Part shown: positions 4,499-7,014 of the stretch, one piece after another | Position numbering within the stretch: position 1 is the first letter of the stretch | Layout of the letters: each line of letters begins with the position of its first letter | Made by a program: the position numbers and the translations under genes | Notes under the pieces: model-generated | What the model was told of the DNA's origin: nothing | Database searches by the model: none | The model's input: the letters and a program-made list of their open reading frames with translations, nothing else | IMG/VR virus record: IMGVR_UViG_3300040815_000108 | Coordinates: 1-21,353 of that record | Direction: 5' to 3' (one strand) | Origin: a virus | Length of the DNA: 21,353 nucleotides

Positions 4499-4654
4499 AT
4501 GATTACTAGAAAAGACTGGCTAAAGACAGACGCAGGAAAGCAATACAAAGCCAGAACCAATAAAAATTATAGACAAAAGAAACAACAAACAAAGAAAGAC
4601 AATTTAAAAGTTAATAAGTCTTTTGAGTTTCATTTTAAAACAAATCAGTCTTAA
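4499..4654 (+). CDS. Small basic protein, candidate first early gene
   Basis: This 51-residue ORF (MITRKDWLKTDAGKQYKART and a further Lys/Gln-rich part) lies about 100 bases after the candidate phage promoter. It is very basic and could bind nucleic acid. The nearest Shine-Dalgarno-like AAGGA is about 14 bases upstream of the ATG, which is too far for strong initiation, so the call is uncertain. No family was recognised. Confidence 0.4.
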   Translation: MITRKDWLKTDAGKQYKARTNKNYRQKKQQTKKDNLKVNKSFEFHFKTNQS

Positions 4655-4791: not shown

Positions 4792-4819
4792 TTGCAATCC
4801 ACAAATGCATCTATATAAG
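4792..4819 (+). promoter_or_regulatory. Possible host sigma-70 promoter for the early region
   Basis: TTGCAA (4792-4797) and TATAAG (4814-4819) are separated by 16 bases, a plausible -35/-10 pair. It lies upstream of the early genes where a T7-like phage needs host-dependent transcription. In such AT-rich DNA similar pairs arise by chance, so confidence is low. Confidence 0.3.
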
Positions 4820-4914
4820 GAAATTACATTATTTTTTTACTGTTTTTTATCTACATACAAAAAACATGAGCCACACACGGTGAGTGTTGCAGGTTCAGAC
4901 CTCGAAGGCGTAGA

Positions 4915-5041
4915 GTTTGACCTGTGGGCGTTGCGATACCAACACCCTGCAAAAATATTATCTGGGCGAGTTTGTCTTTAATGGTGTGCGGGTAGTCCTC
5001 ACGGTTTGGAGGCGGTTGCAGAGATGCAAAGTAGGTCAAAC
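4915..5041 (+). ncRNA. Candidate branched structured RNA in the early leader
   Basis: GTTTGACCT (4915-4923) pairs perfectly over 9 bp with AGGTCAAAC (5033-5041), extendable by two G-U pairs. Inside are three hairpins in order: TACC+ACACC (4937-4946) with GGTGT+GGTA (4983-4994); CCTC (4997-5000) with GAGG (5009-5012); and TTGCA-GAGA-TGCAA (5016-5029), whose GAGA is a GNRA-type tetraloop. The segment is visibly richer in G+C than the surrounding AT-rich DNA, contains no convincing ORF, and precedes the early genes. Pairing was done by eye and the function is unknown. Confidence 0.45.
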
Positions 5042-5058
5042 CAAAATTTGCGGTTGAT

Positions 5059-5101
5059 AATCTGCAAACACTCAGAGCTTGTCTTTAAGTGTTTACAGAT
5101 T
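5059..5101 (+). promoter_or_regulatory. Long leader hairpin upstream of the first strong early gene
   Basis: The 14-base arms 5059-5072 and 5088-5101 are complementary except for one C-A mismatch, enclosing a 15-base loop (5073-5087). There is no T-run, so it is not a standard terminator. It resembles in placement the RNase III processing hairpins of T7-like early transcripts, or an mRNA-stabilising leader. The loop text GAGCTTGTCTTTA nearly repeats GAGTTTGTCTTTA at 4968-4980. Confidence 0.5.
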
Positions 5102-5114
5102 GCCAACGCAATCA

Positions 5115-5138
5115 CAATCAATCAATCAACAAACGGAG
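5115..5138 (+). promoter_or_regulatory. Recurring leader with ribosome binding site (ATCAATCAAC...CGGAG), copy 1
   Basis: Tandem ATCA units followed by ACAAACGGAG end 9 bases before the ATG at 5148. The same arrangement recurs at 5743-5765, 6358-6374 and 8841-8859, and weaker forms lie at 6724-6738 and 11348-11362. It fixes the start of the next gene at 5148 rather than at an upstream in-frame codon. Confidence 0.6.
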
Positions 5139-5147
5139 AAAAAAACA

Positions 5148-5432
5148 ATGTCACACTTTTATGGTTCAATACCTTACTCAGCTAGAAAGACAACAGCTAC
5201 AGCCAGAGGACATAAGACAACTGGTTTGGTAACAGAGGCGGCTTCATGGGAAGGCAAGATTGTTACAGAGTTACATTTTGATACAGTTGTTAAAAAAGAT
5301 ATGTACTCAATTTATAGAAAGCCTCACGGCTCTAGTGGTGGAGAGACAATCTTATTGGCTCAAGGTTATCTAAATGATGACAAGCCAATTTTTACAGCTA
5401 CAGACAAAAGCAACAACAAGGCGGTGGCGTAA
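5148..5432 (+). CDS. Conserved-looking early phage protein, unknown function
   Basis: The 94-residue protein begins MSHFYGSIPYSARKTTATAR. The start at 5148 is chosen because CGGAG lies 9 bases upstream; the frame is open further upstream (to 5079) but that part encodes the leader repeats. The mixed polar sequence with several beta-like stretches (GKIVTELHFDTV, MYSIYRKP) suggests a small globular cytoplasmic protein. Short proteins with a similar MSHFYG opening occur in the early region of marine podoviruses, from memory; their role is not known. It overlaps the next gene by one base (TAATG). Confidence 0.7.
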   Translation: MSHFYGSIPYSARKTTATARGHKTTGLVTEAASWEGKIVTELHFDTVVKKDMYSIYRKPHGSSGGETILLAQGYLNDDKPIFTATDKSNNKAVA

Positions 5433-5686: not shown

Positions 5687-5696
5687 AAATAGACTT

Positions 5697-5733
5697 AAAG
5701 CCTATCCAAGCGGTAGGCTTTGAGACTTTTTTT
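5697..5733 (+). terminator. Rho-independent terminator-like hairpin
   Basis: AAAGCCTA (5697-5704) pairs with TAGGCTTT (5714-5721), with CC/GG able to pair inside the loop. After GAGAC comes a run of seven T (5727-5733). Confidence 0.7.
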
Positions 5734-6814: not shown

Positions 6815-6938
6815 TGAATTGTCACCACATCAGGTGGCTTACAAAGCTGTTGATTTAATAGAGAGAGTTATCGAGGGAAATAACCCTCCACTATTTAATC
6901 TTACAAATGAAATCCAAAAATCAACACTGGAGGATTAA
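6747..6938 (+). CDS. Small protein, unknown; start uncertain
   Basis: This 63-residue frame has GTG at 6747, preceded by a leader-like TCAATCAACA and an AAGGA (6735-6739) seven bases before the GTG, which favours that start. The convincing part is the helical C-terminal half (SPHQVAYKAVDLIERVIEGN). It overlaps the previous ORF by 68 bases. If the true start is later, the overlap shrinks, but no ATG is available in this frame. No family was recognised. Confidence 0.45.
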   Translation: MHQKLKKQVLSFLVRTRSLKQYDELSPHQVAYKAVDLIERVIEGNNPPLFNLTNEIQKSTLED

Positions 6939-6980
6939 TGGGTAACTAAAAGTTGTACTGAAGAGGCTTTAATAGCCGAA

Positions 6981-7007
6981 ATGCCGTCTATTATTACTAG
7001 ACGGTGT
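6981..7007 (+). promoter_or_regulatory. Hairpin of the CCGTC/GACGG family before a small ORF
   Basis: CCGTCTA (6984-6990) pairs with TAGACGG (6998-7004), extendable by two wobble pairs and one A-T to about 10 bp; the loop is TTATTAC. No T-run follows, so a terminator is unlikely. It ends eight bases before the ATG at 7015 and leaves little room for a ribosome binding site. Confidence 0.45.
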
Positions 7008-7014
7008 ATACAAC

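Follow-up and report, generated by a model that had tools for sequence, protein, structure and literature searches.

A candidate structured RNA family in the early leaders of Pelagivirus phages

The put element of phage HK022 is an RNA-only processive antiterminator of about 70 nt that consists of two stem-loops. In T7, an RNase III site (R0.3) lies just before the first early gene. Hammerhead ribozymes are also found in phage genomes, where their roles have been called unclear in the literature. In an Agrobacterium prophage, tandem hammerheads that cleave surround ardA, marR, and integrase genes, and they have been proposed to process long phage transcripts (Perreault et al. 2011, PMC3088659).

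The locus described here can be set against each of these systems. By "the window" we mean the whole stretch of DNA analyzed, the 21,353 bases of virus record IMGVR_UViG_3300040815_000108, a genome fragment that DNA similarity assigns to Pelagivirus, a group of T7-like SAR11 phages in the Autographiviridae. Like put, its leader element is a structured phage RNA located just behind a predicted early promoter and before early genes with terminator-like hairpins. Unlike put, it spans 115–175 nt with helices P1, P2, P4, and P5, so that neither the size nor the two-stem-loop form of put is found; it also includes a long-range P1 helix and a separate P4 domain, and a cutting device stands behind it. 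At the place corresponding to R0.3 the window has a long irregular stem (5048–5111), whereas most Pelagivirus relatives use a hammerhead ribozyme there. The early module is of the same kind as that of the Agrobacterium prophage, with hammerheads between genes, but a conserved structured leader before the first hammerhead is not described in the portions of that paper considered here (PMC3088659). The Rfam families RAGATH-1 (RF03152) and Hammerhead_3 (RF00008) resemble neighboring ribozymes in the window (6918–7013) and in its relatives, all below the gathering score, while the element itself matches neither. SAR11 is an abundant ocean bacterium, and our comparisons indicate that its viruses carry a conserved folded RNA before their first early genes.

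Location and fold of the leader element

The gene order of the window is terminase, lysozyme, a noncoding stretch with a 51-aa open reading frame (ORF), the leader, small early genes, a MarR-like gene, integrase, and RNA polymerase, with names assigned through annotated relatives and by inspection. The 51-aa ORF (MITRKDWL..., 4499–4654) is basic and strongly conserved, and it opens many Pelagivirus records as their first gene. A preliminary description had singled out 4915–5041 as a candidate structured RNA, and DNA matches to HTVC201P, HTVC304P, HTVC022P, HTVC131P, Jormungand, and HTVC019P span this region. Its account of the surroundings is borne out. The region is a G+C island (50%, compared with 34% window-wide; a mere 0.5% of 127-nt windows are as rich) and lies just upstream of the early genes, the first of which has its ATG at 5148. 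It also holds no believable ORF: the frames annotated there as Jormungand gp43 and HTVC131P gp2 fail in other relatives, which have no start codon or contain stops or frameshifts, and several changes alter the amino acid. Jormungand gp43 (L013, 2311–2538), the N-terminal part of its gp44 (L013, 2528–3178), and HTVC131P gp2 (L017, 307–534) overlap the structured RNA; gp43 and gp2 look spurious, and gp44 appears to have been given too early a start.

Upstream of the leader, a promoter-like block (4792–4819) places TTGCAA 16 nt before TATAAG. This block scores under the promoter-scan threshold; it is kept in relatives, several of which have TTGACA with TATAAA or TATAGA at the same position. Transcription would be expected to start at about 4826, as predicted from this block.

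The conserved element occupies about 4870–5044 on the plus strand, where all of the features that follow also lie; these limits derive from covariation and from a covariance model match at 4937–5044. The boundaries originally drawn at 4915–5041 were wrong, as the element begins some 45–75 nt further upstream. A hairpin at 4841–4866 (P0, UGUUUUUU/AAAAAACA, loop AUCUACAUAC), recognized in the sequence and changed to UGGUUUUU/AAAAAUCA in relatives, probably belongs to the element as well. P1, predicted by RNAalifold on a sequence-only alignment, joins CCACACAC (4871–4878) to GTGTGCGG (4984–4991); it has one A-C mismatch in the window and is perfect in L001 and L018. Between its strands lie a hairpin region that varies and the core UCUGGGCGAGU..GUCU. 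In the window's subgroup the P2 region (4887–4952) consists of UUGCA/UGCAA (4887–4891/4948–4952) around hairpins at 4892–4922 and 4926–4947, and in other subgroups it is one short hairpin. Its pairs are mostly invariant or changed on one side within the window's subgroup; across subgroups, P2 covaries. The core UCUGGGCGAGUUUGUCUUUAAUG (4961–4983) is kept across subgroups, and its GGG may pair with UCC at 4996–4998 in a candidate pseudoknot. P4, both strands of which were predicted by RNAalifold on a sequence-only alignment, pairs GGTTTGG (5003–5009) with TCAAACC (5036–5042) and encloses P5, a 5-bp hairpin with a GNRA-type loop (TTGCA-GAGA-TGCAA, 5016–5029). This GAGA-loop hairpin, one of the three local hairpins first noticed, is conserved, with one compensated pair (TTGTA/TACAA) in L058. 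Among relatives, the spacing between P1 and P4 is nearly constant, and the core is conserved and unpaired.

Some other pairings were considered for the same stretch. A P3 hairpin within the core has two constant pairs only and was omitted from the model. Pairing of CCTC (4997–5000) with GAGG (5009–5012) overlaps P4 and, by eye, is broken in several subgroups. A likeness of GACCTGTGGGCG to the hatchet ribozyme was dropped, since the C in question varies in relatives and Rfam gave no match.

The preliminary description had proposed a different architecture, in which a perfect 9-bp helix closes the RNA. That helix does exist in the window, where GTTTGACCT at 4915–4923 is the perfect reverse complement of AGGTCAAAC at 5033–5041, and it is part of the single-sequence minimum-energy fold of 4915–5041. 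It does not exceed chance. The window contains 23 perfect 9-bp inverted repeats spanning ≤130 nt, compared with a mean of 19.4 (range 9–29) in 20 dinucleotide shuffles, and the fold of 4915–5041 has z = −1.89, with 9 of 200 shuffles folding equally well. Nor is it conserved. Across nine close relatives, which make eight distinct rows, no pair changes on both sides, three vary on one side only, and one is broken in four of the eight. The 5′ strand GTTTGACC is invariant in these eight rows, and the 3′ strand takes the forms GGTCAAAC, GGCTAAAC, GGCTGAAC, GGCAAAAC, and GGTCAGAC; the helix is perfect in the window, L016, and L018. The segment that holds the 5′ strand is confined to the window's subgroup and absent from the others, and this strand is instead accommodated in a local hairpin, as its 3′ arm (4892–4900/4915–4922). 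The 3′ strand shares positions with the 3′ arm of P4, which covaries. One-sided changes without compensation are what the preliminary description had itself named as speaking against its helix. Because the helix is a chance-level repeat with such changes in relatives, we reject it, and an RNA closed in this way is most improbable.

Covariation, strand, and distribution

We compared leaders from some 35 distinct phages and viral contigs. The P1 pairing of CCACACAC with GTGTGTGG is replaced elsewhere by CCAAAAGC/GCTTTTGG, CCAAAGTC/GACTTTGG, CCACACAG/CTGTGTGG, and CCACACAT/ATGTGTGG. For P4, the GGTTTG/CAAACC of the window becomes GGTTCAG/CTGAACC, GCAGG/CCTGC, GAAGG/CCTTC, GGAAG/CTTCC, AAGCTGT/ACAGCTT, and other forms in relatives. 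A first-pass test used hand-chosen strands, and the covariation claim rests on later tests with sequence-only alignments. Given plain MAFFT alignment A1, RNAalifold predicted P1 alone, with both-sided changes at six of eight pairs, and given A6 it predicted P4 alone, with both-sided changes at seven of seven; these two tests are independent of our choice of strands and take as input sequences that we cut out. On A1 and A6, both-sided cells, which count sequences and not events, exceeded those of all 500 shuffles, and pairing dropped when the partner was slid by one column. Alignment A3, on which P2 covaries across subgroups, was fitted to the model and is biased toward it. When only the window's subgroup is considered, 97.5% of the cells in the new structure are paired and four pairs vary on both sides, and single-sequence folds of three distant orthologs each yield P1, P2, and P4. 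On this comparative evidence, P1, P2, P4, and P5 are shown to be maintained through compensatory changes.

Within the helices, G-U exchanges outnumber A-C mismatches (20 vs. 4 and 21 vs. 5), and we therefore read the element as a plus-strand RNA. The minus strand gives a better fold score for 4915–5041 (z = −3.19), but the excess of G-U over A-C favors the plus strand. It is almost certain, judging from the aligned sequences, that Pelagivirus early leaders contain a conserved, compact, plus-strand structured RNA of about 115–175 nt. The conservation might in principle come from a coding frame or from a DNA-level signal near the genome end. Indeed, ORFs are annotated in two relatives, and in several records the region is close to the left end. 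However, those frames are broken or startless in relatives, which led us to reject the coding reading, and both the G-U excess and the compensatory changes argue against any explanation without an RNA, which is very improbable.

A covariance model, R1, was derived from six sequences, all of the CCAAA subgroup, with close relatives excluded. It recovers the element from other subgroups' leaders, and it matches the window at 4937–5044 (E = 0.027) as well as HTVC168P, Eistla (E about 1e-10), and a phage contig binned in a metagenome-assembled genome (MAG). Across whole genomes, confident matches occur once per genome, in the leader, and all second matches have E > 0.04. The HTVC131P and Jormungand leaders are missed by R1, yet they align directly; HTVC109P, also missed, has by eye the same 3′ domain with an enlarged P1 domain. 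HTVC031P, L052, L053, L062, and L067 have different leader sequences at the element's place.

A search of Rfam 15 with 4870–5044 gave no match up to E = 5 in the window and no consistent match in relatives, and a search for tRNA or tmRNA found none. Our literature search on pelagiphage RNAs and ribozymes, whose coverage of subscription papers was thin, returned one opinion article only and no description of such an RNA. Thus, with strong covariation and no Rfam match, the original proposal of a structured functional RNA in a phage early leader, outside any known family, is supported. We would class the element as a new RNA family within a known kind, namely, the structured early leader RNAs of phages; a covarying RNA that opens the early transcript, together with a self-cleaving ribozyme exchangeable for a hairpin, would count as such a family.

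A search for Pelagivirus-like terminases in bacterial genomes gave two contigs only, in unrelated MAGs. These are Pelagivirus-type phage contigs placed in a Winogradskyella MAG (L088, JABDKL010000011.1) and a Neomarinimicrobiota MAG (L089, NZIV01000032.1), and their placement there likely reflects binning errors.

Proposed cutting devices and candidate roles

Most relatives have a type III hammerhead ribozyme after P4, ahead of the first early gene's ribosome-binding site. Pattern scans find the CUGANGA..GAAA core with stems I–III in these leaders; every core is on the gene strand, whereas the reversed control yields none, and Rfam Hammerhead_3 matches four leader hammerheads at E about 1e-5, under its gathering score. 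This core is absent from 4870–5147 of the window. There, as in most close relatives and in HTVC022P, a long hairpin replaces the hammerhead while the left flank stays the same. In the window, the hairpin (5048–5111; z = −4.92, 0 of 200 shuffles) has about 26 pairs with small internal loops. Such a long, largely double-stranded irregular stem is of the kind cut by RNase III, and we regard the hairpin as a putative cut site of that type. The exchange of two unrelated devices at a single position suggests that cutting itself matters. In the hammerhead-bearing relatives, the ribozyme motif makes it probable that the leader is released from the mRNA. The group with the conserved long hairpin comprises the window (5048–5111), L015, L046, L048, L057, and L061, which share the left flank TTTGCGGTT.

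The first early gene (5148–5432) is exchanged between phages, with differing proteins behind the same leader: a 94-aa protein in the window, an annotated ArdA in Jormungand (L013), and another protein in HTVC131P (L017). Because this gene is swapped freely, a gene-specific switch is unlikely. Further into the early operon, a terminator-like hairpin (5694–5724) has similar or identical counterparts in many relatives. Such hairpins form conserved GACTTAAAGCC..GGCTTTGAGACTTTTTTT and ACGCCGT..ACGGCGT families with loop and stem variants, carried by the window (5694–5724), L015, L018, L061, L070, L077, and others. Terminator counts were set against simple base shuffles, and the reverse strand scores equally, the hairpins being near-palindromic; only their conservation is used here.

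We tentatively propose the following sequence of events. From the early promoter, the folded leader RNA would be made first, near the start of the early transcript. In most relatives the hammerhead behind the element would cut this leader off the mRNA, and in the window the 5048–5111 hairpin would do the hammerhead's job through host RNase III; the cut would give the early mRNA a defined 5′ end. The leader would then influence the very host RNA polymerase by which it was made, as an RNA-only, put-like antitermination or elongation element, and the polymerase would then pass the terminator-like hairpins within the early operon (5694–5724 in the window). Action of the leader on host RNA polymerase, as with HK022 put, is a plausible analogy that falls short of being probable, and the explanation as a whole, a released leader RNA with such an action, is likewise a tentative one. 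Its promoter-proximal position, its independence from the downstream gene, the downstream terminator-like hairpins, and the put precedent all count in favor of polymerase action. On the other side, the element is unlike put in size and form, the hairpins may have other purposes, and the early operon may contain internal promoters, by analogy with LUZ100, which has them. A cut between element and polymerase would also agree no less well with an RNA that acts in trans once freed.

Such a trans-acting RNA is the main rival. The leader would be a stable small RNA, freed by the hammerhead or hairpin, that binds a host protein, RNA, or ribosome at takeover, and this is a reasonable if doubtful possibility. 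A cutting device after the element in nearly all relatives, a compact fold with a conserved unpaired core, and the irrelevance of the downstream gene all agree with it, but the element stays directly behind the early promoter, which trans action would not need. Because that place is kept and conserved terminator-like hairpins lie downstream, we lean slightly toward action on the polymerase. A more general formulation, an RNA-only host-takeover device that is cut free by interchangeable devices and reprograms host RNA polymerase or another host machine, is rather unlikely as stated. The adjacency of element and cutting device in nearly all relatives, together with the processing of T7-like early mRNAs at the same place, could also mean that the leader is passive and partnerless, shielding the early transcript or helping the hammerhead or hairpin to fold and cut. 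This is distinctly unlikely, since the conserved unpaired core and near-constant P1–P4 spacing exceed passive needs and the same element is paired with two unrelated cutting devices. Least probable among these roles is a ligand- or temperature-sensing switch over the early genes or hammerhead cleavage: A 5′ leader that folds compactly and may contain pseudoknots would fit, but the first gene is exchanged while the element persists with hammerhead or hairpin behind it, and no known riboswitch matches. Whatever its role, the element gives phage hammerheads a concrete, testable setting.

Other structured leaders and hammerheads

Other, apparently unrelated structured leaders are located between early promoter and early genes in L052, L053, and L091 (HTVC031P), in L062 and L067, and in L021 and L022; several of these, too, have a type III hammerhead behind them. 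More broadly, as many as four or five hammerhead motifs are found in the early region of a single Pelagivirus genome, always on the gene strand: one of type III behind the leader, others of type I between early genes, and a RAGATH-1-like motif before the MarR and integrase genes. Examples are found in L014 (994 and 2954) and L019 (2577 and 3122), and also in L027, L029, L054, and others. The window keeps only the RAGATH-1-like motif at 6918–7013, which matches RAGATH-1 over its full length with an intact core and is conserved in relatives, although it scores 36.9 bits against a gathering score of 56.3 (E = 0.0059). Two hammerhead motifs, at 685 and 2577, are also found in the early region of Rhizobium phage RHEph01 (L097), a T7-like phage that is more distant and carries genes for MarR and integrase.
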